Assembly (NCBI GenBank): GCA_001871445.1
Contig: MNVD01000022.1
Location: forward strand, 1 to 46,383
From: Candidatus Magasanikbacteria bacterium CG1_02_41_34
GTDB taxonomy: Bacteria > Patescibacteriota > Patescibacteriia > Magasanikbacterales > UBA922
Length of the DNA stretch: 46,383 bases
Direction: 5' to 3'
This document shows positions 9,868 through 23,532 of this stretch, piece after piece; position 1 is the stretch's first letter; each line of letters begins with the position of its first letter. Below the pieces are notes generated by a model, which had not been told where the DNA came from, searched no databases, and saw nothing but the letters and a program-made list of their open reading frames with translations. The position numbers and the translations under genes are program-made.

Positions 9868-9868
9868 T

Positions 9869-10483
9869 ATGCATATTGAAATATTTTCAAAAAAAGGATT
9901 TACGCTTATGGAAGTTATGGTCGCCATCGGTATGTTTGCTATTATTTCTGTTGCCGTGGGATGGATTTTGATTCACAGTGTCAGATCAACAGATATTATT
10001 TGGGAGCAACTCGCCACGCAAAATGATGGGCGAGCAGCAGTGCAGCAATTTGTCGATGATGTCCGTCGTGCCGAAACTTCAAGTATAGGGAGTTATCCTA
10101 TATCTGATGCATCAAGTACATCCTTTGTTTTTTATGCAAATGTAGATAATGATAATAGTAGAGAAAAAGTACGTTTTTGGATTGATGGGACGGATTTGAA
10201 AAAAGGTGTGATCCAGCCAAGTGGGAATCCATTGAATTATGATGGAGAAGAATCCGTTATTACGATTGCAGAGTCAGTTGTAAATATTGCAAAAGGTATT
10301 GCACTTTTTGAATATTACGATAATACATATCCCGTTACATCAACACCACTGACAGTGCCTGATGCCCTGACGGATATTCGTATCATTCGTATGCAGCTAG
10401 AGCTAGAAAAAGATCCAACTGCGACACCAGTACCATTGCATGTAGAAGCGGTGGTGAATATACGAAATTTGAAAGATAACTAG
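9869..10483 (+). CDS. Type IV pilin-like minor pseudopilin (PilW/GspJ-like)
   Basis: A 204-residue protein whose leader IFSKKG/FTLMEVMVAIGMF contains the class III prepilin cleavage site (Gly-Phe with Glu5) and the N-terminal pilin helix. The following DGRAAVQQFVDDVRRAE segment and the later domain resemble the PilW/GspJ group of minor pseudopilins that prime pilus assembly. It is the second gene of the operon, starting two bases after the large pseudopilin stop; AAGGA lies eight bases before its ATG, inside the end of the preceding gene. Subfamily assignment (PilW versus GspJ) is tentative. Confidence 0.85.
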   Translation: MHIEIFSKKGFTLMEVMVAIGMFAIISVAVGWILIHSVRSTDIIWEQLATQNDGRAAVQQFVDDVRRAETSSIGSYPISDASSTSFVFYANVDNDNSREKVRFWIDGTDLKKGVIQPSGNPLNYDGEESVITIAESVVNIAKGIALFEYYDNTYPVTSTPLTVPDALTDIRIIRMQLELEKDPTATPVPLHVEAVVNIRNLKDN

Positions 10484-10510
10484 TCATGTTACGTGTTGTA
10501 TGTTTTTTGT

Positions 10511-11902
10511 ATGAAGCTATTTCCACTGCACAACACAAAAAAGTTTTTGCATGATAAACGAGGTAACTTGTTATTATTTGTCATGATCTTTGGGTCGCTT
10601 GCATTCACTATGATTGTCATGGGCGTATCAAGTTATGCCTTATTTGAAAATCAAGCATCGAATAGAAAACAGTCTCGTGATTTGTCTTTTCATATTGCAG
10701 AAGCTGGTATCAATTATTATCGTTGGCATCTCGCACATAGCCCTGAAGATTATCAAGATGGAACAGGTGTAGCAGGACCGTATGTACACGCATTTGAAGA
10801 TAAAAATGGCGATGTCATTGGATATTTTTCTCTTGATATAGACGCACCACTCGCCGGTACTACGATTGTAAATTTTCGTTCCACAGGTTGGACTATCGCG
10901 CAACCACAAAATACGAGAACTATTGGTGTTCGTGTCGGATATCCTGCACTCACAGATTTTTCTTTTGTGGAAAATTCTGACATGAGTTTTAGTTATACGA
11001 CAGAAGTGCATGGAAAGATCCATTCAAATGGCGGAATAGAATTTAATGGGACCACCGATTCTATTTTGCAAAGTGCAAAAGAAATCTATGATCCTGTTGG
11101 TGGTCCAGTAAATAGTCCTGGTATCTGGGGAAATGGTGGACCAACCACATTTTGGGATTTCCCTGTGCCCCCAAAGGATTTCAATGCTATTACTACTGAT
11201 TTGGCTGGTATTCGTGATGCATCAGATGCTGGAGGCTTGCATTTTTATTCGTCTGGATCAGAAGGATACCATATGATTTTTCAGGCAGATGGAACATTCA
11301 AACTATACACCGTGACAAAACGTCAAAAATATACAGATTATTGCAAAACTGTATACAATGGATATTGTTATTCTGGAAATGTGTATTATGACATTCAAAA
11401 TGAAACATATGATGCGACGTATACAATACCCGCAAATGGTGCCATTTTTGTAGAAGATGATATCTGGGTAGAAGGAGTGGTCAATGGACATGTGTCCGTA
11501 GGTGCTGGGAGATTTCCTGTGCTTGAAAGTACGTATCAAGAAATTTATCCGATAGGAAATATTACACTCCTCGCAAAAGAATCTACCAATGTGATAGGAC
11601 TGATTGCACAGGGGGATATTGTATATCCATACAATGTTCCAAATGATATGGTTGTGGAGGCTGCATTGCTTTCTCAATTCAAAAAAATTTATAGACCATA
11701 TTTTTCAAACACAAAGAATTCTCTTACTATTTTCGGATCACAAATTTCCTATGCTGGTGGCGGTGTCAAATGGGGGAATCCTGTCGTGAGTGGATTTATC
11801 AATACCATATATATTTATGATGGAAATCTTCGGTATCTTGTGCCACCTGGTTTTCCAGTTGAGCCGACGTATGAGTTGATTTCTTGGGAAGAAATAGAGT
11901 AA
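10511..11902 (+). CDS. PilX-like pilus assembly protein
   Basis: A 463-residue protein with a short basic N-terminus, one hydrophobic helix (LLLFVMIFGSLAFTMIVMGVS) and then the sequence SRDLSFHIAEAGINYYRWHL. An AEAG motif right after the helix is typical of PilX_N-type proteins, which accompany minor pilins and lack a canonical prepilin site. The rest is a large exported domain with beta-rich repeats (VHGKIHSNGGIEFNG; NGAIFVEDDIWVEGVVNGHVSVG) of unknown fold. The start at 10511 (MKLFPLHN) is preferred; an ATG six codons earlier lies in a copy of the CACGTAACA-type intergenic repeat. It is third in the pseudopilin operon. Confidence 0.8.
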   Translation: MKLFPLHNTKKFLHDKRGNLLLFVMIFGSLAFTMIVMGVSSYALFENQASNRKQSRDLSFHIAEAGINYYRWHLAHSPEDYQDGTGVAGPYVHAFEDKNGDVIGYFSLDIDAPLAGTTIVNFRSTGWTIAQPQNTRTIGVRVGYPALTDFSFVENSDMSFSYTTEVHGKIHSNGGIEFNGTTDSILQSAKEIYDPVGGPVNSPGIWGNGGPTTFWDFPVPPKDFNAITTDLAGIRDASDAGGLHFYSSGSEGYHMIFQADGTFKLYTVTKRQKYTDYCKTVYNGYCYSGNVYYDIQNETYDATYTIPANGAIFVEDDIWVEGVVNGHVSVGAGRFPVLESTYQEIYPIGNITLLAKESTNVIGLIAQGDIVYPYNVPNDMVVEAALLSQFKKIYRPYFSNTKNSLTIFGSQISYAGGGVKWGNPVVSGFINTIYIYDGNLRYLVPPGFPVEPTYELISWEEIE

Positions 11903-12024: not shown

Positions 12025-12897
12025 ATGTCAAAAAAACCACAGGTACGAAAAGGAGTGATTATTGTTGCAGGGCTTGGAACCCGTTTTCTTCCTGCCACAA
12101 AGGCGATGCCAAAAGAAATGCTTCCTATACTCGATAAGCCTGTCGTGCAATATATTGTCGAAGAAATGGTCGCGAGTGGGATCAGAGAAATTATTTTTGT
12201 TACGAGTTGGAACAAACGTTCTATCGAGGATCATTTTGATAGAAATCATGATCAAGAGTTTTTTCTCAAAGAACGTGGCAAGTATGATCGCATCGAAGCC
12301 CTCGTAGAACTTACCAAAAAAGTACAGTTTTTTTATACTCGACAATCTTCCCCAAAGGGGAATGGTGACGCCCTCCTCTGTGCAAAAGAATTTGTGGGCG
12401 ATGAGCCATTTGCATTTTCGGATGGTGATAGTGTAATTGATGCTAAAGTACCGGTTATTAAGCAACTGTTGAAAGTGTTTGATAAAAAGCAGGCATCTGT
12501 GATCGGTGCACAGCGACTCACTGATAAAGAAGCCATGACAAAATATGGCAATATCTATGGCAAACCTACTGGTGAAGATCGTATCTATCGAGTATCAAAA
12601 TTTGAAGAAAAACCTGACATTGAACATGTGTCCCCAGAAGGATTGATTGTTGGTGGCATGCGATATATTTTTACAAAAGATATCTGGCCATTTCTAGAAA
12701 AAGTTCGAAAAGGGAAAGATGGTGAACTTTGGGTAGCCGACGCTGCACACGCACTCGCACAAAAGAAAAAGTTTTTTGCCTACGAATACAATGGTCAGTA
12801 TTTTGATACTGGTGACAAACTGTCTCTCCTCAAAGCAACCCTTCATTTTGCGATGAAAGATGATGAAATACGAGAAGAACTTGGTGCATTTTTGTAA
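12025..12897 (+). CDS. galU: UTP--glucose-1-phosphate uridylyltransferase
   Basis: A 290-residue nucleotidyltransferase that makes UDP-glucose from UTP and glucose 1-phosphate for glycan synthesis in the cytosol. The N-terminal signature AGLGTRFLPATKAMPKEMLP (residues 15-34) is that of GalU, with the catalytic Arg/Lys pair; DKPVVQYIVEEM and the sugar-site segments SKFEEKPD and VGGMRYIF follow. The uridine-contact segment reads FSDGDSVID rather than the common LPDDLI, a small deviation. The length is normal. It has its own promoter and is followed after seven bases by the first two-helix pilin-module gene, so the two are probably cotranscribed. Confidence 0.94.
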   Translation: MSKKPQVRKGVIIVAGLGTRFLPATKAMPKEMLPILDKPVVQYIVEEMVASGIREIIFVTSWNKRSIEDHFDRNHDQEFFLKERGKYDRIEALVELTKKVQFFYTRQSSPKGNGDALLCAKEFVGDEPFAFSDGDSVIDAKVPVIKQLLKVFDKKQASVIGAQRLTDKEAMTKYGNIYGKPTGEDRIYRVSKFEEKPDIEHVSPEGLIVGGMRYIFTKDIWPFLEKVRKGKDGELWVADAAHALAQKKKFFAYEYNGQYFDTGDKLSLLKATLHFAMKDDEIREELGAFL

Positions 12898-12904
12898 TAG
12901 CTCT

Positions 12905-13777
12905 ATGGAAAACTGGTCCTGTCAATCAAAAAAAATATATTCATTTCAGAAAGTTTATTTTTTGGTTGTTGGATTCCTCTTTGCATGTTTTGCACTGCCT
13001 GGTATTGCTCATGCCGCAGTACTGGATTGGAATTGTGATCCGGGAAAAGAAATATGCTATATATTTCCTACTGCAGATGCAACAGAAAAGTCTGAGGAGT
13101 GTTTTGATAAAGCTGTCTCCAAGGCGTGGGGAACGCAAGATGCTCTACAAGAGGGGGAATTACTTCATTTTGAAATACCGATAGAAAATACTGGTGCAGT
13201 ACCACCTGTGTTTGCATGTTCAAATTGTGGCACTGAGGGATCGGTTTATAGATTTTATACTGAAGATAATACGGGGATTTTTGAAATAAATTTGGAGCAA
13301 AAAATTCTTAGAGATACACGAGCTGCAGTAGGGACAAGTCCGTATTATTACGCCAGATTTTTGTTGTCTGCGACAGTAACCAATACTGTCGCTGGAGTTG
13401 AAACTTCTGAAACGATATATGCAAATCTTTGTGCTGTGGTAAAAAAACCCGCACAAGTTGCTCCGCCAACTCAGCCGACAACAAAAGCACCTGTTGTTGA
13501 CGTAAAGTCTACCTTTCCTTCTATTACAGATTTGAACCCACTGAGGGCCACGTCTGTTCCGACCCTTTTTGGTCGTGGTATAACTATTTTGCTTGGTGTA
13601 CTTGGGAGTATTGCTATTCTCATTTTTATCTATGGTGGTATGCTCTGGATGACATCAATGGGGAATGCAGACCAAGCAGGAAAAGCATTGAAGACGATTG
13701 TCTGGGGAGCTATGGGCGTATTTGTTATATTTGCAAGTTATGCGGTTGTACAGTTTGTGCTGGATGCATTTAAATAG
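12905..13777 (+). CDS. Exported protein with C-terminal two-helix VirB2/TrbC-like module (array member 1)
   Basis: 290 residues. An N-terminal signal segment (VYFLVVGFLFACFALPGIAHA) is followed by an exported domain of about 170 residues with several Cys (CDPGKEICY, FACSNCG) and a Pro-rich linker (APPTQPTTKAP). The C-terminal residues from about 225 are the module shared by eleven genes here: helix 1 (ILLGVLGSIAILIFIYGGML), a short polar hinge WMTSMGNADQAGKA, and helix 2 (VWGAMGVFVIFASYAVV). This matches the Mbov_0395/TrbC-like pilin pattern of conjugation systems. The start at 12905 is chosen over one inside galU because the signal peptide follows directly. The fused ectodomain is not recognised. 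Confidence 0.8.
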   Translation: MENWSCQSKKIYSFQKVYFLVVGFLFACFALPGIAHAAVLDWNCDPGKEICYIFPTADATEKSEECFDKAVSKAWGTQDALQEGELLHFEIPIENTGAVPPVFACSNCGTEGSVYRFYTEDNTGIFEINLEQKILRDTRAAVGTSPYYYARFLLSATVTNTVAGVETSETIYANLCAVVKKPAQVAPPTQPTTKAPVVDVKSTFPSITDLNPLRATSVPTLFGRGITILLGVLGSIAILIFIYGGMLWMTSMGNADQAGKALKTIVWGAMGVFVIFASYAVVQFVLDAFK

Positions 13778-13816
13778 CACGTAACACATAGCACGTAGCA
13801 CGTAGCACGTAACACA
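13777..13816. repeat. Tandem CACGTAACA/CACGTAGCA degenerate repeats
   Basis: About four 9-10-base words in a row (CACGTAACACATAG, CACGTAGCACGTAG, CACGTAACACAT) directly after the stop codon of array member 1. They run in the same orientation as the set at 13877-13941. The unit is not separated by unique spacers. Confidence 0.75.
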
Positions 13817-13876
13817 TTTTTGCATGATGAATACGAGAAATGCATTTCATGATAAACTAAAGAAGTTGATACAATT

Positions 13877-13941
13877 TCACGTAACACATATCACGTAGCA
13901 CATAGCACGTAACATGTAGCACGTAGCATGTAACATATAAC
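13877..13941. repeat. Tandem CACGTAACA/CACGTAGCA degenerate repeats
   Basis: About seven units from TCACGTAACACATATC through ACATGTAGCACGTAGC to TAACATATAAC fill the space just ahead of the four-helix-bundle gene. The words differ from each other by one or two bases. Confidence 0.75.
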
Positions 13942-13947
13942 AAAAAT

Positions 13948-14313
13948 ATGGGGGAGGGGTTTCATGAAAAGTTAAAAAGGTTGATTCATGAATATATACG
14001 TTTGAGCTATGTTCATACCAAAAAGTATCCAGCAGATGAGAGGTTTGGACTTACATCACAAGATAGAAGAGCCGCTGTATCAGTGATGTCAAATTATGTA
14101 GAAGGGCACGGAAGAATAAAGATTGGATCCAAACAGAATTTTTATGAAATATCATTTGCATCACTAAAAGAATCCATTTATTGTAGATTTTTAGCACAAG
14201 AGCTTTTGTATATAACGAAAGAGGAATACACAAAAGCGTTTGCTCTAAAAGACGAGATAGCGGCCATGCTGTATACTACGATTAAGGGATTAGAAAAAGA
14301 CAAAAGTACATAG
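13948..14313 (+). CDS. Four-helix bundle protein (23S rRNA intervening-sequence protein family)
   Basis: 121 residues with the family pattern: an early helix with a Tyr-rich stretch (IHEYIRLSYVHTKKYPADE), then the conserved FGLTSQDRRAAVSVMSNYVEGHGR (split here as FGLTSQDRRAAVSVM and SNYVEGHGR), and two C-terminal helices. These proteins were first found in insertions of 23S rRNA genes but are common as free-standing genes; their role is unknown. There is no rRNA here. The gene is framed on both sides by the CACGTA-type repeats, so it may travel with, or be tolerated by, that element. The start ATG at 13948 abuts the upstream repeats. Confidence 0.85.
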   Translation: MGEGFHEKLKRLIHEYIRLSYVHTKKYPADERFGLTSQDRRAAVSVMSNYVEGHGRIKIGSKQNFYEISFASLKESIYCRFLAQELLYITKEEYTKAFALKDEIAAMLYTTIKGLEKDKST

Positions 14314-14415
14314 AACACATAACACGAAACACATAACAACACGAAACACATATCACGTAGCACGTAACACGGTGCCACAAGAAGTGTTATGTGTTATGTG
14401 TTACGTGCTACGTGA
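14314..14415. repeat. Long inverted repeat of the CACGTAACA family
   Basis: TCACGTAGCACGTAACAC (14353-14370) is perfectly complementary to the sequence at 14398-14415, giving an 18-bp stem around a 27-base loop. Further ACACATAACACGAAAC words precede it. It occupies the whole gap between the four-helix-bundle gene and the lipoprotein gene. Confidence 0.85.
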
Positions 14416-14422
14416 ATATCCT

Positions 14423-15802
14423 ATGAGAACGAAATACCTCACAATACTTCTTACCATGCTTAGCATAACCGCCCTGGCTGGTTTCGGTTGCAAAGGACTT
14501 TCTCAAACAGAGCAAGCATCTATCAAACCAATCACGCTGACATACTGGACAGTCTTCGATGATGTTGGACAGCTCCAAAAATTTGCAGCAGCCTACAAGA
14601 AAACACGTCCATACGTGACAGTAAATATCCGACAGATTCGCTACGAAGAATTTGATGATTTGTTTACCAATGCGCTGGCAGATGATATCGGGCCAGATGT
14701 TGTGTCCATGCATGTGCGCTGGCTTGGCAAGTATGAGGCACGTCTCGATCCGATGCCTGCGTCCGTCAATGTATCTGATGTAGAGATCACTGGTAGTCAA
14801 TTTTCAGAGCAGATCATCGTCACGCCACGAACCAATCCTATGCCAAGTATTCGTGGGCTTGAGTCCAATTTTATTGGGACAGTGGCGAGTGATGTGGTCA
14901 TCCGAAATCAGATCTATGGTCTTCCACTTGCACTTGATACACTCGCATTATATTACAATAAAAAAATTCTCGATAAAGCTGGTATCGCAGAGCCACCAAC
15001 ATCGTGGACAACGTTTCTCGATGATGTAAAAAAAATTACACGTGTAAATGGAGTAGGAGATATTATTCAGTCTGGTGTACCGATGGGGACAGGGAATAAT
15101 ATCGACAATGCTACAGATATTTTTGCACTGCTTCTCTTGCAAAATGGGGTGGATGTGGTCAAAGATGGTACTGTTGTATTTGCTGGTGGCATAGACCGAG
15201 CAGCGTCAAATCATCCGACACTCGAGGCATTACGATTTTATACTGATTTTGCCCGTCCGACAAAAGAAGTCTATAGTTGGAATGAAAAACAAACAGATGC
15301 ATTTACCGCCTTTACGCAAGGAAGAGCGGGATTTTTCTTTGGCTTTGCATACGATTTTCCTCGCATAAAAAGTCGTGCCCCACAGCTCGCTATTGAAGTG
15401 ATCCCTGTGCCTCAGCTCAATGACAATGCACCGGTAAATGTAGCAAATTATTGGGTGGAGAGTGTTGTAAAGAAAACAAAGCATCGAGACGAAGCGTGGG
15501 ATTTTATCCGTTTTATGACGACGCCTGAGAATATCAAAATATATACAGACGCGACAAAGCAGCCGTCGCCGCTCAGGGCGCATGTCGCTGCGCAGCAAGA
15601 AGATCCGGAGCTTGGTCCGTTTGTGCAGGGTATCCTTACGGCGAAAAACTGGTATACTGGGAGAGATATAGATAAAGCAAATATTGCGATTGAAAACCTT
15701 ATGTTGCAGTATCTTTTGCCGTATGCAGATGGGCAAAATGCATTGAAAAGAGATGCCCAGCTTATCATTAATGCTGCGACAATAGTACAGCAAACGTTGT
15801 AG
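14423..15802 (+). CDS. Extracellular solute-binding lipoprotein (SBP_bac_1-like)
   Basis: 459 residues. The N-terminus is a lipoprotein signal: basic MRTKY, a hydrophobic stretch, then a lipobox ending LAGFGC, with Cys21 the expected lipid anchor. The mature protein has the family 1 binding-protein pattern: LTYWTVFDDVGQLQKFAAAY at its start, GLPLALDTLALYYNKKILD in the middle, and TQGRAGFFFGFAYDFPR and WVESVVKKTKHRDEAWDFIRF towards the end. Family members bind sugars or related solutes for ABC import. No permease or import ATPase lies nearby; instead it sits inside the pilin-module array, four bases ahead of array member 2. Its ligand is unknown, and the isolation suggests a role as a surface receptor or a distant partner (inference). 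Confidence 0.88.
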   Translation: MRTKYLTILLTMLSITALAGFGCKGLSQTEQASIKPITLTYWTVFDDVGQLQKFAAAYKKTRPYVTVNIRQIRYEEFDDLFTNALADDIGPDVVSMHVRWLGKYEARLDPMPASVNVSDVEITGSQFSEQIIVTPRTNPMPSIRGLESNFIGTVASDVVIRNQIYGLPLALDTLALYYNKKILDKAGIAEPPTSWTTFLDDVKKITRVNGVGDIIQSGVPMGTGNNIDNATDIFALLLLQNGVDVVKDGTVVFAGGIDRAASNHPTLEALRFYTDFARPTKEVYSWNEKQTDAFTAFTQGRAGFFFGFAYDFPRIKSRAPQLAIEVIPVPQLNDNAPVNVANYWVESVVKKTKHRDEAWDFIRFMTTPENIKIYTDATKQPSPLRAHVAAQQEDPELGPFVQGILTAKNWYTGRDIDKANIAIENLMLQYLLPYADGQNALKRDAQLIINAATIVQQTL

Positions 15803-15805
15803 AAT

Positions 15806-17224
15806 ATGAGAATATCGAATTTATCAATAAATAAAAGTAGATTACTTTGGGTAAGTATATTAGGATTTTTTTTGTTTTTTCCCTCTGATGATGCTCGAGC
15901 TTTGGCAAGCATTCCAACGACCTGTAAAAATATCCCAGGACAAAGTTCTGATGTACAAATAGGGCATTATTTTGCTTTTATCAATCAACCAATTACACTT
16001 CAAGAAAGAGAACAATTTTTAAATACAGATGGTGCAGATATTCCACCTATAAAATATGTAGATAGTTTTGATTGTATATACAAAGCTAATACATCAGGAT
16101 ATATAACTTTTGCTGATCTATTGAGCTCACATTTAATACCAATGGATTGGCAACAAAATCACCCAAATTTTTTAACAAATTATTATTGGCCTGAGTTGAG
16201 AACGGGCAAGTATGGTGTTAATGATCCTGATCATCAGTTTGAGTTATTGTTATCTACTTATTTTAATATCAAACCTCCTGTTGCCCCTGCAGCTGGAGTC
16301 AATGATGCCATCAAAGCTCGGATTTTTTATACTATTAGAGATGGTAATCAAGAGAAAGGATATTTATTTTTTCTTGGAGATACAGAACACCAAGTAGCTA
16401 TTTCTCTTGGAACATGGAGTGGTAAAGTGATAACCATCTCAAAAGGAGAAAAAAAGACTTTTAAGGTGGAACTAACTACGGATGTTACCGGAGTAAAAAT
16501 TACGTGTGAAAATTGTGCTGATCAGGCTATTATTATTTCACCTTCATCAGAAAACACTCCGAATGTTGTTCTTTTAACATTGGATGAAACAAAAATAAAA
16601 ACTCCTTTGATCATTCTAAAAGCTCAAAAAGGAGCTTTTGTTGACCAATATTCTTTAACCGTGAATATAGTCGATGTTGAATGCAGCGCTCTCTCTGAAG
16701 GAGAATGTGCAACAAATAGCTTTTGTTTCTCTTTTGAGAAAGAATGTATTGCTAAAACAAGAAATATCGAATGTGTGAAAGTCCCAAAAGCTCTTTGTGG
16801 TACAAAAGAAGGGTCTTCATATTGTACATATCTCGAAGCAACAAATACGTGTACAGACTATCTCAGTAGTGCATATCAAAGTTCGTATAAACCACCCAAC
16901 GCAGGTGATTACAAAGGGCCGCTCCCTCCTTGTGCGTTTGATGGAAGCTGTCGGAATGTCAATGATCTCATCCAACTGTTTATCAATTTTGGAAAGATGA
17001 CACTTGGAATTGTTGGTTCTGCTGCATTGATATTTTTTGTATACGGTGGTTTCATGATGATCATTTCTGCTGGAAATGCGGAGCGTGTGAAAAAGGGAAG
17101 GGATATTCTCGTTGCAGCAATTGTCGGCATTGTGATCGCATTTAGTGCGTATGCCCTTATCAACTTTGTCCTCGATGCACTGAACGTATCGGAGGATTTT
17201 CGTGTGATTGAAGAAATCAAATAA
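15806..17224 (+). CDS. Exported protein with Cys-rich region and C-terminal two-helix module (array member 2)
   Basis: 472 residues: an N-terminal signal helix (LLWVSILGFFLFF), an exported region of about 250 residues that I do not recognise, a Cys-rich segment near 290-350 (VECSALSEGECATNSFCFSF, then CIAKT, KALCGTKEGSSYCTYLEATN), and from about 387 the shared module (GIVGSAALIFFVYGGFMMI, hinge ISAGNAERVKKGRDI, helix AAIVGIVIAFSAYALINFV). Several Cys pairs suggest disulfides outside the membrane. It begins four bases after the lipoprotein stop, so the two are likely cotranscribed. Base composition is slightly more AT-rich in the ectodomain than in the module. Confidence 0.8.
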   Translation: MRISNLSINKSRLLWVSILGFFLFFPSDDARALASIPTTCKNIPGQSSDVQIGHYFAFINQPITLQEREQFLNTDGADIPPIKYVDSFDCIYKANTSGYITFADLLSSHLIPMDWQQNHPNFLTNYYWPELRTGKYGVNDPDHQFELLLSTYFNIKPPVAPAAGVNDAIKARIFYTIRDGNQEKGYLFFLGDTEHQVAISLGTWSGKVITISKGEKKTFKVELTTDVTGVKITCENCADQAIIISPSSENTPNVVLLTLDETKIKTPLIILKAQKGAFVDQYSLTVNIVDVECSALSEGECATNSFCFSFEKECIAKTRNIECVKVPKALCGTKEGSSYCTYLEATNTCTDYLSSAYQSSYKPPNAGDYKGPLPPCAFDGSCRNVNDLIQLFINFGKMTLGIVGSAALIFFVYGGFMMIISAGNAERVKKGRDILVAAIVGIVIAFSAYALINFVLDALNVSEDFRVIEEIK

Positions 17225-17230
17225 TATATA

Positions 17231-17260
17231 TCACGAAACACATAGCACGTAACACGTAAC
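17231..17260. repeat. CACGAA/CACGTAACA repeat, left arm
   Basis: TCACGAAACACATAGC followed by ACGTAACACGTAAC. It is the approximate inverted partner of 17355-17377, about 95 bases on. Confidence 0.7.
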
Positions 17261-17354
17261 AAAAAAAGTGTTGAAGATAGATTTTTGTGATAACATAAGA
17301 ATGTCGGTTTTTAAAATTAACTTTGATACGTACATACATAGTGCATGAAGAAGT

Positions 17355-17377
17355 GATATGTGTTACGTGCTACGTGA
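17355..17377. repeat. CACGTAACA repeat, right arm (inverted)
   Basis: GATATGTGTTACGTG-CTACGTGA, the reverse complement of the CACGTAGCACGTAACACATATC word, placed seven bases ahead of the next start codon, just like the right arms at 7898 and 14415. Confidence 0.7.
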
Positions 17378-17383
17378 AAAAAT

Positions 17384-19093
17384 ATGACGCCAAACTTTAT
17401 AAACACAAAACAATCATTCATCTACGCACTTCTTGTCTTCGGATTGTTTTTGTTTCCGCAGCGTGTTTTTACTGCACTGCCAACGCCAGTGACGACGACC
17501 CCGGAATCCAAGTACACGTTCTATACATATATCTCAACCTGTAGCGATACGGACAAAGTATTTCCTGGTGAGTTTACAGGTAACAAGGCTAGTCAAAGTA
17601 AAAAAGTGGGTATTGTCGTTCCTAGGAGTATACCTCACAGCGAAATTACGTATATTTATTTTCATGGGAATGATGAGTTACCTGTTGAAGATATCTGTAA
17701 TGGATCACGATATAAGATATGTGATACTGCTGTTGCATTGGGAGCCCCGATGATTATTCCACAAACTGCGGTAAATGGTTCTTCAAAAAAAACAACGCGT
17801 ACTACCAAAGAAGAATTCGAATGTGTTATGAATGAAGCATACGATGTCTTGGTTTCAAAAGGTATTTCTTCACAAAAAAATTATATTGTGGCAGGGCATA
17901 GTGGTGGTGCATTTACGATGAGTAGTTATTTTATTGCAGGTTTGATAGCGCAAAAGGCGATTGTACTAGATGGATGTTATGTGACAGATCCTCCAAATCC
18001 AAATCCACCGGCAAATTTCTGTCAGGATATTATTGCCAATTTTGCTGGTCCTGTAGATTTTTATTATCAGACCCTTTCTAGTTCTGGTGAAACAGCTGGG
18101 ACACGAGTTGAAACTCTAAAAACTGTTGCCATAGCACACCCTGGTGGAGCTCTCACTGCAAAAAAAGTAAACCTTACACATTATCAACTTCCTACTGCCT
18201 GTCTCAAAGACGCTACTACTTGTGAAAATCATGTAGTAGTGGACAGTGGTACTAGTGGTGGTGACACTTCTTCTGGGGGGGCATCGGGTGGAACATCTTC
18301 TGGTGGCACGACGGCACCAAAAGGACCAACGTACACAGGCAACGAGCTTCCTATTCATACGGTTGAGCTTGTCAATCCTATAAAAGGAAATGTTACAGAT
18401 TTCCGTATTATTTTTGGAAATGTTGTTCAAAAGCTCATGGCAATTATTGGAGCTGTTACACTGGTCGTCTTCATCATTGGTGGTGCATATTGGCTCCTCT
18501 CTGCCGGCAATCCAGAGCGCGTCAAAAAGGGTACCGAAACTATGGTCTGGGCTGCGATAGGATTGTTTGTTGTCTTTGGGGCGTATGGAATTTTGAGTGC
18601 AGTGATTGGAGGGTTGACGGGGAGATCTGTAGTGGATAGTGGTGCGCCGACAAATTCGAGTGATGTTCATCTCATCACTGGGTATGTAAAAATTATCAAT
18701 CAAAAAACCCTTATCATGTCTGAACCAAAATCAAATGTCACGGCAAAGGGAACATTGAATCCTAATACGGATTGTGTGCCCGTAACAGGAAAAAAACAAA
18801 ATGGGTTTTCAGAAGTAAGAGATCCAAAAAATCTTGCATTGTATGGCTGGGTACTCGATGGATCTATTGTACAAACAACAGCTCAATGTGGAGGAGATCA
18901 GTCTACCGCTCCTTCTCAAGATACACAAAATACAGGAAAGTGCGTCTGCACTATCAAAGATGATACGACGGGTGATACCTCACAAACAGCTATTCCAAAT
19001 GTAGATAGTCCAGCAGAATGTGTAACTACATCATTGCAAAGTCCTATTGTTGGAACAAGTATTAGTGGTTGTTCTTGGCAAACAACAAATTAA
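17384..19093 (+). CDS. Alpha/beta-hydrolase-like domain fused to two-helix module and SH3-like domain (array member 3)
   Basis: 569 residues in three parts after a signal peptide (FIYALLVFGLFLFPQRVFTA). Residues 70-270 look like an alpha/beta hydrolase: TYIYFHGND at the oxyanion strand, the nucleophile elbow VAGHSGG with Ser173, a following strand AIVLDGCY, and a candidate catalytic His in VNLTHYQLP. A Gly/Ser/Thr linker (about 285-310) leads to the shared module near 345-415 (MAIIGAVTLVVFIIGGAYWL, hinge LSAGNPERVKKG, helix VWAAIGLFVVFGAYGIL). After it comes an SH3b-like domain (GYVKIINQKTLIMSEPKS ... LALYGWVLDGSI) and a short Cys-containing tail. Enzyme activity and target are unknown; both soluble domains should face the same, outer side if the module forms a hairpin. 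Confidence 0.8.
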   Translation: MTPNFINTKQSFIYALLVFGLFLFPQRVFTALPTPVTTTPESKYTFYTYISTCSDTDKVFPGEFTGNKASQSKKVGIVVPRSIPHSEITYIYFHGNDELPVEDICNGSRYKICDTAVALGAPMIIPQTAVNGSSKKTTRTTKEEFECVMNEAYDVLVSKGISSQKNYIVAGHSGGAFTMSSYFIAGLIAQKAIVLDGCYVTDPPNPNPPANFCQDIIANFAGPVDFYYQTLSSSGETAGTRVETLKTVAIAHPGGALTAKKVNLTHYQLPTACLKDATTCENHVVVDSGTSGGDTSSGGASGGTSSGGTTAPKGPTYTGNELPIHTVELVNPIKGNVTDFRIIFGNVVQKLMAIIGAVTLVVFIIGGAYWLLSAGNPERVKKGTETMVWAAIGLFVVFGAYGILSAVIGGLTGRSVVDSGAPTNSSDVHLITGYVKIINQKTLIMSEPKSNVTAKGTLNPNTDCVPVTGKKQNGFSEVRDPKNLALYGWVLDGSIVQTTAQCGGDQSTAPSQDTQNTGKCVCTIKDDTTGDTSQTAIPNVDSPAECVTTSLQSPIVGTSISGCSWQTTN

Positions 19094-19114
19094 TATACCC
19101 ATGTGGAAAACAAT

Positions 19115-19143
19115 GTGACAGTACCTGCGAATACTGATACAAT
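19115..19143 (+). promoter_or_regulatory. Promoter of the presumed major pilin-module gene
   Basis: GTGACA (19115-19120), 17-base spacer, TACAAT (19138-19143); 53 bases ahead of the ATG at 19197. Confidence 0.65.
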
Positions 19144-19181
19144 ACTGTTACACGAATGTGTATCCTTATCTTAATGACAGA

Positions 19182-19191
19182 AAGGAGGTGA
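19182..19191 (+). promoter_or_regulatory. Consensus Shine-Dalgarno site deciding the start at 19197
   Basis: AAGGAGGTGA, a full anti-16S match, five bases before ATG. Such a site is rare in this window and sets the start at MKKIIVKL rather than an upstream ATG at 19158. Confidence 0.9.
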
Positions 19192-19196
19192 CACTC

Positions 19197-19640
19197 ATGA
19201 AAAAAATTATTGTAAAACTTTCACAGTATAGAACAACATTGATGCTTGCAGCTGCAGTATTGATGTCATTTGCGTTCTTGCCATCTATGGCATCTGCAAA
19301 TGGTGTATCTCCACTCGCAGCAAGTTCAAGTTTTGGTCTTGGTCAGAATGACCCTGCTGCTAGCCTTGGTCTTGGTACAACTGCACTTGACGATGCTGTC
19401 GTAGGTCTTATCAATGTAATGCTCGGATTTCTTGGTTTGATTGCTGTTGTCATCATCCTGATCGGTGGTTTCCGTTGGATGACTGCTGGTGGAAATGAAG
19501 ACAAAGTTGGTCAAGCACGAAAAACGATCTTTGCAGGTATTATTGGTCTCGCGATCATTCTCTTTGCTTGGGGTATTACGATTTTTGTTGTCCAGCAACT
19601 TGGAAAAGCTTCTGGAGCTGAAGAATTCCAAACTCTTTAG
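19197..19640 (+). CDS. Small two-helix VirB2/TrbC-like pilin, probable major subunit (array member 4)
   Basis: 147 residues: a signal peptide (LMLAAAVLMSFAFLPSMASA), a short Gly/Ala/Ser-rich mature N-terminus, and the shared module (LGFLGLIAVVIILIGGFRWM, hinge TAGGNEDKVGQARKT, helix FAGIIGLAIILFAWGITIFV). Size and layout are those of VirB2/TrbC-type prepilins, in which a small hydrophobic hairpin polymerises after signal cleavage. It has the best translation signal of the window and a decent promoter, and a stable stem-loop follows the gene. These points argue that it is made in larger amounts than its paralogues and could be the main filament subunit. That is an inference; no filament genes such as VirB4 are in view. 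Confidence 0.85.
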   Translation: MKKIIVKLSQYRTTLMLAAAVLMSFAFLPSMASANGVSPLAASSSFGLGQNDPAASLGLGTTALDDAVVGLINVMLGFLGLIAVVIILIGGFRWMTAGGNEDKVGQARKTIFAGIIGLAIILFAWGITIFVVQQLGKASGAEEFQTL

Positions 19641-19653
19641 TACTATATTGCCT

Positions 19654-19687
19654 ATACGAGACCTTGCGTGTGCAGGGTCTCGTATAC
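19654..19687 (+). other. Stem-loop after the probable major pilin gene
   Basis: TATACGAGACC (19654-19664) pairs with GGTCTCGTATA (19677-19687), 11 bp, without a following U run. It may stabilise or partially terminate the highly expressed upstream message. Confidence 0.7.
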
Positions 19688-19733
19688 CGCAAGGTTGTAC
19701 ATTTTCCCGTGAATAGTATTCAAAAGAAAGTGT

Positions 19734-19739
19734 ATAATC
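19734..19739 (+). promoter_or_regulatory. -10 box of a possible leaderless promoter
   Basis: Perfect TATAAT eight bases before the ATG at 19748; the best -35 at 17 bases is TGAATA. Transcription would start at the start codon. Confidence 0.5.
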
Positions 19740-19747
19740 ATCTTTTT

Positions 19748-20134
19748 ATGAAACGAACTCTTGTCTTTCTCACTCTCCTTATTGTTGGATTTTTTGGACT
19801 TATGCATGCATTTCCTGTGTTTGCTGCTGACCCACTGGGTGTCAATTATGGTGCAGCCAGTGGACTCTCTGGTCAGGACCTTCGTGTGAGTATCGCACGG
19901 GTGATCAAGTTTATATTGAGTTTTCTTGGTATTATTTTTGTCATCCTCACACTCTATGCAGGCTTCATGTGGATGACATCTGCCGGCAATGAAGATAGAG
20001 TTGGTACAGCAAAGAAAATTCTCTGGGGCGCGATTATCGGCCTGGCTATCATATTGTTTTCCTATGCGATCACCCAGTTTGTGATTACAAATTTGTACGA
20101 AGTGTCGACAAGTCAGTCGTATACTACACCATAA
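19748..20134 (+). CDS. Small two-helix VirB2/TrbC-like pilin (array member 5)
   Basis: 128 residues with a signal peptide (FLTLLIVGFFGLMHAFPVFA), a short polar mature N-terminus and the module (ILSFLGIIFVILTLYAGFMW, hinge MTSAGNEDRVGTAKK, helix GAIIGLAIILFSYAITQFV). It is closest in sequence to member 4, sharing GNED-V--A-K and GIIGLAIILF-type segments, so a duplication of that gene is likely. The start at 19748 is set by the signal peptide and by the TATAAT eight bases ahead. The short tail after helix 2 is Ser/Thr-rich. Confidence 0.82.
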   Translation: MKRTLVFLTLLIVGFFGLMHAFPVFAADPLGVNYGAASGLSGQDLRVSIARVIKFILSFLGIIFVILTLYAGFMWMTSAGNEDRVGTAKKILWGAIIGLAIILFSYAITQFVITNLYEVSTSQSYTTP

Positions 20135-20177
20135 ACAATAAGCAATAAACAATTTTCTTATTACGTATTACAAATTT

Positions 20178-20936
20178 ATGAAACGCCTGTTATCTTTTTC
20201 CATGTTTCTCTTTGGTGCAGTGATGCTGCTTTCTCCAACACTTGTTTTTGGGGTTGATGATTCATATGGACTCAATGCAACTGCCGAGGCAGCACATCTC
20301 ACAAAATATGGCAAAGACGTGCCGGCACTTATCGGAAATGTTATTGGTACATTGTTGTCACTTGTGTCTGTCATCTTTTTTATTCTCATGATCTATGGTG
20401 GTCTCAGATGGATGCTGTCACGTGGAAATGAAGACCAGAGCAAAAAAGCACTTGATACGATTATTGCCGCAATTATTGGTATTATCATCGTCCTCGCATC
20501 CTACGCGATTACCACGTTTGTGTTCAATAGTGTGGGATCTGCTGCCGCTGGTGGTGGTGGGCCTAAGCCTCCACCTGGACTCACGTGGTGTTTGACTGCA
20601 GAAAATCAGTGTGTTCAGGGAAATGGAGGCGGGTGTACAAATCCACAACCTTCTGAGACTGCTTGTTTGGCTGCAAAAGCACAAGCAAAAACGCCGATTG
20701 GGGGAACGTGTGGAGCGGCGACAGAGTGTACGTCTGAAGTGTGTACTGGTGGAGTGTGTGTGGCAGCTGTCGATGCAAGTATCTGTACTAATGGTGGAAC
20801 AGTATGTCCAACTGGACAAACGTGTAATACCGTTACAAAAGAATGTTTGTTAGACAGTCAGATAGATTGTACGCAGCCAGGATTATCTTGTCCATCTGGA
20901 AAAACGTGTGATTTGGCTACAAAAGCGTGTGTATAA
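20178..20936 (+). CDS. Two-helix module with long Cys-rich C-terminal tail (array member 6)
   Basis: 252 residues. After a signal peptide (LFGAVMLLSPTLVFG) comes the module (LLSLVSVIFFILMIYGGLRW, hinge MLSRGNEDQSKKALD, helix AAIIGIIIVLASYAITTFV) at about residues 50-125. A Gly/Pro hinge (AAAGGGGPKPPPG) then leads to about 110 residues with some 18 Cys in repeating patterns such as GGTCGAATECTSEVC, GGVC, CPTGQTCNTVTKEC and CPSGKTCDLATKAC, like the small disulfide-knotted repeats of many surface proteins. The tail should be exported and rigid. It may be a binding or spacer part displayed by a pilin-like anchor; ligand unknown. Confidence 0.82.
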   Translation: MKRLLSFSMFLFGAVMLLSPTLVFGVDDSYGLNATAEAAHLTKYGKDVPALIGNVIGTLLSLVSVIFFILMIYGGLRWMLSRGNEDQSKKALDTIIAAIIGIIIVLASYAITTFVFNSVGSAAAGGGGPKPPPGLTWCLTAENQCVQGNGGGCTNPQPSETACLAAKAQAKTPIGGTCGAATECTSEVCTGGVCVAAVDASICTNGGTVCPTGQTCNTVTKECLLDSQIDCTQPGLSCPSGKTCDLATKACV

Positions 20937-20960
20937 AATTGGGCGATAAATACGTAATAC

Positions 20961-21629
20961 ATGAATTTCCATATTAAAAAAATTTCTTTTTTTCTCGTCA
21001 TTTTCTTTTTTTGTCTTCCGAGTATTGTTTATGCCAAAAAAACAGTCGATGATGCACCTACCCTCCTCAACGCTGTAGCAGGCAAAGTCGGTGTAGAACA
21101 AACAACCGTACCCTTATATGTAGGGACAATTATTCAAACTATCCTAGTGTTTAGTGGCATACTGTTTTTTGTGCTCATGGTATATGCTGGATTTCGGTGG
21201 ATGACTGCGCGTGGAGAAGAAGAAAAAATTACCAAAGCAAAGCGTACACTCATCGGCGCTATCATTGGTCTTGCTATTCTGGTCTCATCATACGCGCTGA
21301 CCAACTTCATTACGACACGAATCATTGAGGGAACACCAAATGTAGGCGGAGATATCAATTTTGAAAATGTAGATTTTACAACACTCGGGTGTTGTTTTGA
21401 TAAAGTGCAACATCCTTCGGGATCTGGTTTGGAAGTGCGTGCCACGACTTGGGCATGGCGTGTCACCTCACAGGGAGATTGCCAAGAAGAAGGAGAGCGT
21501 GTCAGTTCTATTGATGCTATAGCCGGACCTGGTTTGTGGAAGTTCACGCCCGTAGATTCAAAACAACAATGTGAAGCACTGTATACCACCTTTTGTGAGA
21601 CGGAAGATTGCTATGATTTGGGATTTTGA
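20961..21629 (+). CDS. Two-helix module with Cys-containing C-terminal domain (array member 7)
   Basis: 222 residues. A strongly hydrophobic signal (FFLVIFFFCLPSIVYA) precedes the module at about 50-120 (ILVFSGILFFVLMVYAGFRW, hinge MTARGEEEKITKAKR, helix GAIIGLAILVSSYALTNFI). About 90 residues follow, with an LGCCFDK start, Trp-rich centre (TTWAWRV) and four more Cys near the end (QQCEALYTTFCETEDC). This exported domain is not one I can name. It differs from the tail of member 6, showing that different domains have been attached to the same anchor. Confidence 0.8.
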   Translation: MNFHIKKISFFLVIFFFCLPSIVYAKKTVDDAPTLLNAVAGKVGVEQTTVPLYVGTIIQTILVFSGILFFVLMVYAGFRWMTARGEEEKITKAKRTLIGAIIGLAILVSSYALTNFITTRIIEGTPNVGGDINFENVDFTTLGCCFDKVQHPSGSGLEVRATTWAWRVTSQGDCQEEGERVSSIDAIAGPGLWKFTPVDSKQQCEALYTTFCETEDCYDLGF

Positions 21630-21653
21630 GAATGAGTGAATTTGGGGTATACT
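21626..21653 (+). promoter_or_regulatory. Promoter ahead of array member 8
   Basis: TTGAGA (21626-21631), 16-base spacer, TATACT (21648-21653), 74 bases before the ATG. It overlaps the stop codon of member 7. Confidence 0.5.
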
Positions 21654-21727
21654 TGTTGTACTGTACAAATTACAAATATCGTTGGTAACGAGCTTACGTT
21701 CATCACCCTTTTCTTACTTGGTTTGTT

Positions 21728-22093
21728 ATGAAGTATACAAAAACATTTCTTACAGCTCCTTTGCTCTCTTTATTTACGGCACTCCCAGCATACGCACAGG
21801 GGAGTCTCAAAGATGCAGGAAAAAATCTTGGCATAGTCTCTACAAAAGCTGGTACATCAGAATCTGATATTGGGAGTGTGGTTGGTATTGTTATCAACGC
21901 CGCTTTGACACTTGTTGGACTCATTTTTCTTGCTCTCATGGTCTATGCTGGGTATCTCTGGATGACTGCGCGTGGAGAAAGTGAGCCTGTCGACAAAGCA
22001 AAAAAAATCATTGCCGGATCAATCATTGGGCTTGTGATTGTGATGAGTGCGTATGCAATTACAGTCTTTGTAACCACAGGATTTACAAAATAA
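21728..22093 (+). CDS. Small two-helix VirB2/TrbC-like pilin (array member 8)
   Basis: 121 residues: signal peptide (LTAPLLSLFTALPAYA), then QGSLKDAGKNLGIV, a short extracellular N-terminus, and the module (ALTLVGLIFLALMVYAGYLW, hinge MTARGESEPVDKAKK, helix AGSIIGLVIVMSAYAITVFV). Nothing is attached to the module. It shares the hinge MTARGESEPVDKAKKI exactly with member 9, which starts four bases after its stop, so these two are recent duplicates and probably cotranscribed. Confidence 0.82.
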   Translation: MKYTKTFLTAPLLSLFTALPAYAQGSLKDAGKNLGIVSTKAGTSESDIGSVVGIVINAALTLVGLIFLALMVYAGYLWMTARGESEPVDKAKKIIAGSIIGLVIVMSAYAITVFVTTGFTK

Positions 22094-22097
22094 TACT

Positions 22098-22478
22098 ATG
22101 AAACGTTTTATTGTCTTTACTGTCTCGCTCGCGTTTTTTCTCGGTGTTGTTTCAAATGCCTATGCGATAGATCTTGGAAATAATTATGTGAACTCTGCGG
22201 CAAATAAAGCTGGGTATGCTTCAAATACAGACCAAACCACACTTGCAGCAACACTTGGTACTGTCGTCAAAACAGCATTATCTTTTGTTGGAATAATTTT
22301 TCTTTCGCTCATGGTCTATGCTGGATTTCTTTGGATGACCGCACGTGGAGAAAGCGAGCCTGTCGACAAAGCGAAAAAAATTATTATTCAGTCGATCATT
22401 GGTCTGGCTATTACTGTCGGAGCATACAGTATTACAGCATTTGTCGTCCCTGCTGTATTGTCACGAACTGCACAGTAA
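22098..22478 (+). CDS. Small two-helix VirB2/TrbC-like pilin (array member 9)
   Basis: 126 residues, near-duplicate of member 8 in the module (ALSFVGIIFLSLMVYAGFLW, same MTARGESEPVDKAKK hinge, helix QSIIGLAITVGAYSITAFV) but with a different mature N-terminus (IDLGNNYVNSAANKAGYAS). The signal peptide is VFTVSLAFFLGVVSNAYA. N-terminal divergence with a fixed module is the pattern expected if the N-terminus is the exposed, selected part. Confidence 0.82.
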   Translation: MKRFIVFTVSLAFFLGVVSNAYAIDLGNNYVNSAANKAGYASNTDQTTLAATLGTVVKTALSFVGIIFLSLMVYAGFLWMTARGESEPVDKAKKIIIQSIIGLAITVGAYSITAFVVPAVLSRTAQ

Positions 22479-22532
22479 TACCCTACTACAGGTAGGCTTT
22501 CCTGTACATGAGATGATGAGTCCTTTTGACAT

Positions 22533-23006
22533 ATGCGTAACATCTTAGCAAAACATATCTTGATTAAAAGTCTTCTACTCGTTGGCATGTTTTCTCTGTA
22601 TGTTGGCTCTCCCGTATTTGCCCAGACACTTAGCAAAGATATTACTACTCAGATAGATGCAGCAGGCCATAAGGCTGGCATTTATACAACATCTACTCCA
22701 GCAGAATTTTTTGGCTCTTTTATTCAAATTATACTGAGCATTACTGGAATGCTCTTTTTTGTACTGCTCATCTATGGCGGATATGTGAGGATGACTGCTC
22801 ACGGAGAAGACGATCGTTTGAAAAAATCTACAAAGACTATGGTGGCAGCACTGCTCGGACTTACGATTGTGTTACTTTCCTATGCAATTACAAAATTTGT
22901 GCTCCCTCGTATCTACAACGCATCAAGGGTTGAACCTGTATATCAAGAAAACAATGATTCACCAAATACGATATACCAAAAAAGTATTGATATAAAACTT
23001 TTCTAG
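22533..23006 (+). CDS. Small two-helix VirB2/TrbC-like pilin (array member 10)
   Basis: 157 residues with a signal peptide (SLLLVGMFSLYVGSPVFA), a mature N-terminus of about 35 residues, and the module (ILSITGMLFFVLLIYGGYVR, hinge MTAHGEDDRLKKSTK, helix VAALLGLTIVLLSYAITKFV). A polar 25-residue tail (VEPVYQENNDSPNTIYQKS) follows. A short stem (TACAGG/CCTGTA) lies in the gap after member 9. The next gene starts four bases after its stop. Confidence 0.82.
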   Translation: MRNILAKHILIKSLLLVGMFSLYVGSPVFAQTLSKDITTQIDAAGHKAGIYTTSTPAEFFGSFIQIILSITGMLFFVLLIYGGYVRMTAHGEDDRLKKSTKTMVAALLGLTIVLLSYAITKFVLPRIYNASRVEPVYQENNDSPNTIYQKSIDIKLF

Positions 23007-23010
23007 TTAT

Positions 23011-23532
23011 ATGAAAATTCGGTTTATTGCCTTTGCATGTATTGTTGCGACTATGGGAAGTATTCCTTTTTTTGTGTATGCTGCTCCTGCATCAGATGCA
23101 TTCCTGATGGAAGGACAAGTGGACTTTAATAATACTGAGGTCAATAAACAAACACAGGCATTCACAGGAACAAAAGGTGCTGATCTTGGACGTGTCAGTG
23201 ATATCCGCATCGTGATTGCCTCGACGATCCAAAAATTTCTTGTGGTACTTGGGACGCTCTTTCTGGTCTATATGATTTATGCTGGGTACCTGATTTTGAC
23301 CTCAGCGGGGATAGAGGAACGAGTAGAAAAAGGAAAAAGTATATTGCGAAATGCAATTATTGGACTTATCATTATTTTGTTTTCGTACGCGGCGACATGG
23401 TTTGTGCGCTGGCTCTTTCTTGCAACTGGGGATGAGGCGTATAAAAATTGTGTTCCCTATACGATTGATTATAATGGTGATCCACTTGATGCAAGTGGCA
23501 ATCTTATTGATAATCCACAAAATGGTTGTTAA
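23011..23532 (+). CDS. Two-helix VirB2/TrbC-like protein, last member of the array (member 11)
   Basis: 173 residues. Signal peptide (CIVATMGSIPFFVYA), a longer mature N-terminus (about 45 residues) and the module (FLVVLGTLFLVYMIYAGYLI, hinge LTSAGIEERVEKGKS, helix NAIIGLIIILFSYAATWFV). A 40-residue hydrophilic tail ends NLIDNPQNGC with two Cys. The hinge lacks the WMTA motif of the others but keeps the Gly and the basic turn, like members 2 and 3. A terminator closes the array 20 bases downstream. Confidence 0.82.
   Translation: MKIRFIAFACIVATMGSIPFFVYAAPASDAFLMEGQVDFNNTEVNKQTQAFTGTKGADLGRVSDIRIVIASTIQKFLVVLGTLFLVYMIYAGYLILTSAGIEERVEKGKSILRNAIIGLIIILFSYAATWFVRWLFLATGDEAYKNCVPYTIDYNGDPLDASGNLIDNPQNGC

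Follow-up and report, generated by a model that had tools for sequence, protein, structure and literature searches.

The 46,383-nt window analysed here belongs to a Candidatus Magasanikbacteria genome (ABY1, Patescibacteria; estimated 96.75% complete) whose source organism is tiny and probably host-dependent. Positions 12860–23532 of the forward strand carry eleven genes, numbered here as slots 1–11, each encoding one two-helix module of about 77 residues from the Pfam family T4SS_pilin (PF18895) (Table 1). A first-pass annotation had proposed eleven same-strand genes sharing one homologous module, and the whole-genome profile search that it called for bears this out: PF18895 matches 11 of 11 array genes at E ≤ 3.2e-5, and 11 of the 14 modules in the genome lie in the array. 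Nine of the array modules exceed the curated cut-off of 26.6 bits, and the remaining two score 26.1 and 24.2 bits. The array is tandem, as that annotation had it, except that two non-pilin genes, for an IVP-type four-helix protein and a solute-binding protein, interrupt it. Promoter and terminator scans gave no signal above chance level.

Table 1. Genes of the array and positions of their modules within the window.
Feature	Position	Strand	Profile match
Slot 1: N-head (~200 aa, 7 Cys), module at extreme C-terminus	12860..13777	+	PF18895
Slot 1 module, 77 residues	13541..13771	+	
IVP/bAvd-type four-helix-bundle protein, non-pilin, within array	13948..14313	+	PF05635 4e-21
SBP_bac_1 solute-binding protein	14372..15802	+	PF01547 6e-33
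Slot 2: ~350 aa N-head with Ig-like beta-sandwich, Cys-rich stretch (14 Cys), module, 13-residue tail	15806..17224	+	PF18895 1e-6
Slot 2 module	16952..17182	+	
Slot 3: alpha/beta-hydrolase-like N-head, module, ~158 aa Cys-containing C-head	17384..19093	+	PF18895 7e-9
Slot 3 module	18386..18616	+	
Slot 4: small pilin-like protein	19158..19640	+	PF18895 1.5e-8
Slot 4 module	19374..19601	+	
Slot 5: small pilin-like protein	19664..20134	+	PF18895 1.3e-4 (3.2e-5 in whole-genome search)
Slot 5 module	19865..20095	+	
Slot 6: module, Cys-rich C-head (133 aa, 16 Cys)	20178..20936	+	PF18895 7e-8
Slot 6 module	20304..20534	+	
Slot 7: module, ~100 aa C-head (6 Cys)	20961..21629	+	PF18895 2e-8
Slot 7 module	21093..21323	+	
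Slot 8: small pilin-like protein	21728..22093	+	PF18895 1.5e-7
Slot 8 module	21854..22084	+	
Slot 9: small pilin-like protein	22098..22478	+	PF18895 5.4e-6 (whole-genome search)
Slot 9 module	22227..22457	+	
Slot 10: small pilin-like protein	22533..23006	+	PF18895 2.3e-5
Slot 10 module	22683..22913	+	
Slot 11: pilin-like protein, ~40-residue C-extension	23011..23532	+	PF18895 5e-6
Slot 11 module	23188..23418	+	

The modules are 27–40% identical to the first module of the array. An HMM built from slots 1–3 recovers slots 4–11 at 1e-13 to 2e-22, and one built from slots 4–11 recovers slots 1–3 at 5e-17 to 4e-20, whereas the best control (reversed or shuffled modules and other proteins of the window) reaches 0.002; the homology is therefore not due to chance, and the hydrophobic hairpins are not the unrelated sequences that would have spoken against the annotation. 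Residues G33, G41 and G59 are invariant, and L18, G22, Y67, F72 and V73 almost so. The hinge motif quoted in the annotation is an approximate consensus, with W, M and the closing S-Y-A not constant.

Hydropathy and charges give the array proteins two hydrophobic helices and a charged hinge behind a signal peptide, with signal-peptide-like N-termini on all eleven, and the AF2 models of slots 2 and 3 fold the module as a hairpin of two helices. Five to six of the genes are small (121–173 aa), in line with the prediction of at least five small pilin-like proteins. The others carry heads, N-terminal of the module in slots 1, 2 and 3 and C-terminal in slots 3, 6, 7 and 11. In all eleven proteins, cysteines outside the signal region occur in heads only, with none in modules. 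The models of the slot 2 and slot 3 heads are of low confidence (pLDDT 49). Specifically, the slot 2 head (48.9 overall, about 70 across the sandwich) finds Ig domains with Foldseek; matches to protocadherin, at E ≥ 0.005, were not used, and only an Ig-like fold is retained. For the slot 3 N-head model, likewise of low confidence, Foldseek returns S-formylglutathione hydrolase/esterase D (E 1e-5, prob 1.00), and the sequence contains GHSGG, with S173, D225 and H266 invariant in three species. This head occurs in 3 of 4 genus members; G003 has lost it.

When the position-labelled modules of nine genera are placed on a tree, they group by slot, requiring 11 changes where the minimum is 10 and the shuffled mean 71.5. 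Most slots form a clade of their own, orthologous and in the same order across the nine genera, and the modules fall into two families, slots 1–3 (mostly headed) and slots 4–11 (mostly small). Judged from these sequences, the eleven slots are old and each has specialised, and their order is kept across the whole bacterial family. The side and size of the heads are also kept per slot between arrays: the slot 7 C-head measures 93–128 aa in 9 of 10 arrays, and the slot 11 C-extension 28–52 aa in 10 of 10. In another conserved operon the module is joined to giant proteins, one of which could be read fully at 3,837 aa. Giant fusions are quoted here from sequence without N; an apparent 14,266-aa pilin fusion in G130 was rejected because 40 kb of N produced it.

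The annotation had further suggested that hinge and helices are constrained while the heads are changeable, and that related genomes would retain the array and vary the heads. Both expectations agree with our comparisons. In particular, pN/pS is 0.01–0.18 for modules and 0.07–0.11 for flanking genes, against 0.22–0.69 for heads; modules are under housekeeping-like constraint, and heads are not. Against three genus relatives, the slot 1 head is 78, 35 and 20% identical and its module 94, 68 and 59%, while the slot 6 C-head is 38, 74 and 29% identical and its module 97, 90 and 83%. Among same-slot pairs from different genera, homology is detectable for 495 of 495 modules, 40 of 122 N-heads and 8 of 79 C-heads (slot 6 C-head, 0 of 39 pairs), so that same-slot heads of different genera can usually not be recognised as related.

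The search for VirB4 and VirB6 elsewhere in the genome, which the annotation had advised, found them on a different contig, C36, along with PrgI (VirB3) and a TrsD-like protein, the latter assigned from position and order alone (VirB4 P-loop, 2.5e-27; PrgI, 9e-12; TrbL/VirB6, 24.5 bits, just below cut-off). The genome thus holds the gene set of a Patescibacteria-type T4SS, whose VirB4 clade lies near MPF_FATA: VirB4, PrgI/VirB3, a TrsD-like protein and VirB6. In the closed genome G030, array and virB4 likewise lie in distant parts. Relaxase PF03432, the one relaxase family searched, has no match in this 96.75% complete genome, and neither family searches nor visual inspection revealed a relaxase at the T4SS locus; the array is thus not seen as an ordinary part of a complete conjugative element. 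Among 240 sampled Patescibacteria, PF18895 occurs in 234 and VirB4 in 226, and VirB4 is absent from 3 of 6 pilin-less versus 12 of 234 pilin-bearing genomes (Fisher p 0.0036). Several family genomes rated nearly complete have pilins and no VirB4 match, which masked or missing sequence can cause. G003 is such a case: its apparent VirB4 loss was rejected, because it encodes PrgI, the TrsD-like protein and VirB6, and N masks the place of VirB4.

Signal peptide, two hydrophobic helices and charged hinge are shared with VirB2/TrbC pilins (PF04956, e.g. TrwL of R388), and this topology, together with weak profile matches, tentatively suggests a link. Many members reach the TrbC profile at weak, sub-threshold scores (best 5.5e-5 among 46 proteins), and hhalign of the module profile finds no match to TrwL, a bona fide VirB2, nor to VirB3 or an SMR transporter. 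A PDB profile search with the module matched no solved pilin; designed Pizza proteins were set aside as weak matches of 18–20 residues. The modules also match the Mbov_0395/ICE_MMCAP2_0565 pilin-like conjugal transfer protein (NCBIfam NF045849; E 5e-8 to 2.5e-4), a part of conjugative elements judging from its NCBI family name, but at 20–33 bits, under the curated cut-off of 40 bits.

The main text of Quinonero-Coronel et al. 2025 (PMC12102498) describes tandem arrays of 2–11 VirB2-like pilin genes in Patescibacteria, of the same Pfam family, with high paralogue divergence and relaxases rare near the T4SS loci, as here. In Southlakia epibionticum, a T4SS pilin series is essential for epibiotic growth (Wang et al. 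2023, PMC10633639); these divergent VirB2-like pilins number six (PMC12857230) and lie within the T4SS cluster, whereas the present eleven are remote from virB4 and several are large-headed. Since such arrays are known, ours is not new by itself. The annotation's view of a non-standard T4SS locus is incomplete, in that a core exists on C36 and comparable arrays have been described. That main text is without head fusions, orthologous fixed slots, a conserved module with swapped heads, an SBP member or giant fusions, all found here. Nor did the literature searched yield a description of fixed slots, of module constraint against swapped heads or of the giant-fusion operon, or an experiment showing a T4SS pilus in any Patescibacterium.

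We consider it fairly probable that the array encodes VirB2-like subunits of a Patescibacteria-type T4SS: eleven proteins in a set order, each specialised as a pilin or as part of the pilus base, of which some display extracellular domains that evolve fast and serve contact with the host. Each protein would be exported by Sec and sit in the membrane as a hairpin, the charged hinge cytoplasmic and both ends outside. A short pilus or membrane platform, mounted on the VirB3/4/6 machine (presumably that of C36), would consist mainly of the small pilins. The headed pilins would be minor subunits at its tip or base, where their esterase-like hydrolase, Ig-like and Cys-rich domains would meet the envelope of the host cell. 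Heads may be replaced or diverge fast because they face the host, while the module stays strongly constrained.

Alternatively, the module may be merely a two-helix, pilin-derived membrane anchor, and the array a set of non-polymerising, T4SS-independent surface proteins (adhesins, hydrolases, small spacers). Fusion to proteins thousands of residues long, distance from the T4SS core, genomes lacking a VirB4 match and the unrecognised TrwL all fit an anchor. We nonetheless regard it as rather unlikely: strong constraint and eleven-fold ordered slot specialisation go beyond what an anchor requires, the small pilins lack any ectodomain that would call for one, pilin loss correlates with VirB4 loss across the phylum, and similar pilins sit in the essential T4SS cluster of S. 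epibionticum (PMC10633639). It is improbable, too, that the array is a substrate-capture machine whose SBP, along with the hydrolase, Ig and Cys-rich heads, binds and degrades host or environmental polymers at the surface, together with type IV pilus-like genes and independently of DNA or protein secretion. All genus members carry an SBP_bac_1 gene inside the array, and so do the ABY1 genomes examined, slot 3 bears a hydrolase head, and T4P-type genes and galU lie upstream in order-level relatives; yet that hydrolase is confined to part of the genus, no ABC permease partner is seen in the array, and the small pilins and VirB4 correlation are left unexplained.

Tandem duplication for antigenic-type variation has been proposed for the amplified virB2/virB5 paralogues of the Bartonella Trw T4SS (cited in the main text of PMC12102498 and in PMC12857230), which are thought to touch host cells and said to be interchangeable, and by analogy for Patescibacteria in that same main text of PMC12102498. 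Although divergent tandem paralogues offering alternative surfaces would suit it, we find this highly improbable here: the slots are ancient and orthologous in nine genera, mostly each in its own clade and in order, unlike recent interchangeable copies, and the variation lies in fused domains while modules are conserved.

In a bolder form of the preferred reading, which we rate as slightly less likely than not, the T4SS pilus or base would be heteromeric, with about eleven non-interchangeable VirB2-like subunits in defined positions, and its pilin modules would display genus-specific enzymes, Ig-like and Cys-rich domains and a giant fused pair, making a modular host-contact organelle. If so, conjugation-type pilins have become a heteromeric, general display scaffold, and the heads could offer a way to infer the host range of these epibionts. 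The role of the T4SS in Saccharibacteria has been described as completely unknown (PMC11665869); the sequences here indicate constant machinery and likely host-facing parts, a short list of fast-changing domains at known positions.

As for the gene models, the start codon of slot 5 is uncertain, MKRTLVF at residue 29 being the likelier start. The IVP/bAvd-type gene is not a constant member: its ortholog occupies the same place in G001 only and is elsewhere or absent in the others.

The array lies on contig C5 of a 1.04-Mb genome in 36 contigs, from a lineage of class ABY1 (Patescibacteria), and is bounded by galU (12025) and a glycosyltransferase/ftsH pair (23581, 24413). For the slot 3 protein, the only relatives that carry an organism name come from two Candidatus Magasanikbacteria MAGs, members of this class. 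Each of its eleven co-directional genes (slots 1–11) encodes one two-helix T4SS_pilin module (PF18895), with 27–40% identity to the first module, and in cross-validation about ten orders of magnitude lie between the array modules and the controls (shuffled, reversed or unrelated sequences), confirming that the hairpins share the common module proposed in the first-pass annotation. The N-termini of the proteins resemble signal peptides, both helices are hydrophobic and the hinge is charged, with cysteines outside the signal region confined to the heads (the N- or C-terminal parts fused to the module), sequence features compatible with a hairpin exported by Sec with both termini outside. Slots 1 and 2 are separated by two further genes, one of IVP type and one for an SBP_bac_1 protein; no ABC permease partner for the solute-binding protein is visible inside the array. 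The type IV pilus-type genes upstream of galU are kept in order-level relatives.

The modules are constant while the heads change. Within the genus, mean identity is 94/81/73% for modules, 70/56/41% for N-terminal parts, which contain signal peptides, and 67/64/48% for C-terminal parts. The closest pair of genomes gives pN/pS values of 0.01–0.18 for modules, 0.07–0.11 for galU, SBP, GT2 and ftsH, and 0.22–0.69 for heads, the head alignments of slots 2 and 6 being near saturation. For the same slot in different genera, homology can be detected in 495/495 pairs of modules, 40/122 of N-terminal heads (slot 1, 5/55; slot 2, 35/49; slot 3, 0/18) and 8/79 of C-terminal heads (slot 6, 0/39; slot 7, 8/30); the heads of slot 2 are therefore largely kept and those of slot 7 partly, with slots 1, 3 and 6 the most changeable. 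These three comparisons bear out the earlier view that hinge and helices are conserved and exposed parts differ. Head side and rough size are constant per slot, slot 3 excepted, and a Pfam search of 46 headed proteins named almost no head (one SH3).

The slot 3 head contains GHSGG, with S173, D225 and H266 unchanged in three species, and its model matches esterase D-type enzymes in Foldseek (E 1e-5); since the model is of poor quality (pLDDT 49), the alpha/beta hydrolase-like fold of this putative enzyme is graded as likely. The slot 6 C-terminus is a 16-Cys domain, and the slot 2 head is a predicted Ig-like sandwich (predicted structure, Foldseek).

In three genus members, each of the eleven genes finds a reciprocal best match and gene order is unchanged (one has an additional slot 1 copy, and two arrays are each spread over two contigs); this, together with the head comparisons, upholds the expectation that relatives keep the array and vary the heads. 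When 95 modules drawn from nine genera are placed on a tree, labels of gene position alone change 11 times (minimum 10), against a mean of 71.5 for shuffled labels, with 0/200 shuffles as low. The tree, which rests on 77 columns with many weak forks, has two deep clades (slots 1–3 versus 4–11); slots 4, 5 and 7 each fail to form a single clade. The operon T4P-like genes–galU–headed pilin–SBP–further pilins also occurs in other family genera, and seven genomes with it have exactly eleven pilins. Arrays outside the order have about six, usually three N-headed and three small, which suggests that a 3+3 set is ancestral and was expanded afterwards.

The first-pass annotation saw no VirB4 because the T4SS core locus sits on contig C36. 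VirB4 and VirB6/TrbL are encoded there (the VirB6/TrbL profile match is slightly below cut-off); the absence of a relaxase stands for PF03432, the one family searched for in the genome. The gene set is that described for Patescibacteria (PMC12102498). Of 240 genomes from the phylum, 234 have PF18895 and 226 have VirB4, with correlated absences, a correlation weakened by missing or masked sequence. N stretches, which can imitate gene loss or artificially lengthen open frames, cover the VirB4 position in the relative G003 (L079, G003:C11) and the giant gene in G130 (L087-L088, G130:C1).

Pilin arrays as such are already known: 441 arrays of 2–11 genes have been described, with versatility towards hosts proposed (PMC12102498), and a T4SS pilin series was shown to be essential in Southlakia epibionticum (PMC10633639). 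Fused heads, fixed slots and giant fusions had no description in the open-access papers searched. The mechanism we favour as most likely is a heteromeric T4SS pilin set that would polymerise and display minor subunits turned towards the host.

NCBIfam NF045849 (Mbov_0395/ICE_MMCAP2_0565, pilin-like conjugal transfer protein) matches slots 1, 2, 3, 6 and 7, and matches modules better than TrbC does, a result relevant to the view, stated in PMC12102498, that VirB2 is missing from Gram-positive T4SS classes. PF18895 also matches in one of 14 control genomes, Haloferax volcanii; the module therefore extends to archaea.

Features of the array surroundings, the T4SS core and the second unit (G000, this genome; L, loci examined)
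Feature	Location	Remarks
Three type IV pilus-type genes	window 7906-11902	directly upstream of galU and array; N_methyl motifs in two
Solute-binding protein (SBP_bac_1)	window 14372-15802	constant array member across ABY1 genomes examined
Core locus	C36	VirB6/TrbL (1415 aa), two uncharacterised proteins, PrgI, TrsD-like protein, VirB4
Two-gene operon, G000	L035:1-7437 (G000:C32)	N-terminal T4SS_pilin module fused to each product
Two-gene operon, relatives	L040:1364-16161; L059:6316-18512; L073:5542-19899	
Lone further pilin-module gene	L036:1-639 (G000:C36:142-306)	contig end

Outside the array, the genome encodes two adjacent module fusions of 1,034 aa and at least 1,443 aa, with Ig-like domains. 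Across family and class, the products of this operon are a ~560–1,090-aa protein and a giant Ig-like/repeat protein, the longest covered in full having 3,837 aa with Big_5 and YCF48-type repeats (an incomplete one has 4,069 aa). The pair is present in many family genomes and in nearly all of ten ABY1 genomes examined beyond the family; in G018 and the closed genome G030 it lies about 20 kb downstream of virB4. Relatives of the lone module gene are ~500–640-aa proteins in the same-genus genomes G001, G002 and G003.
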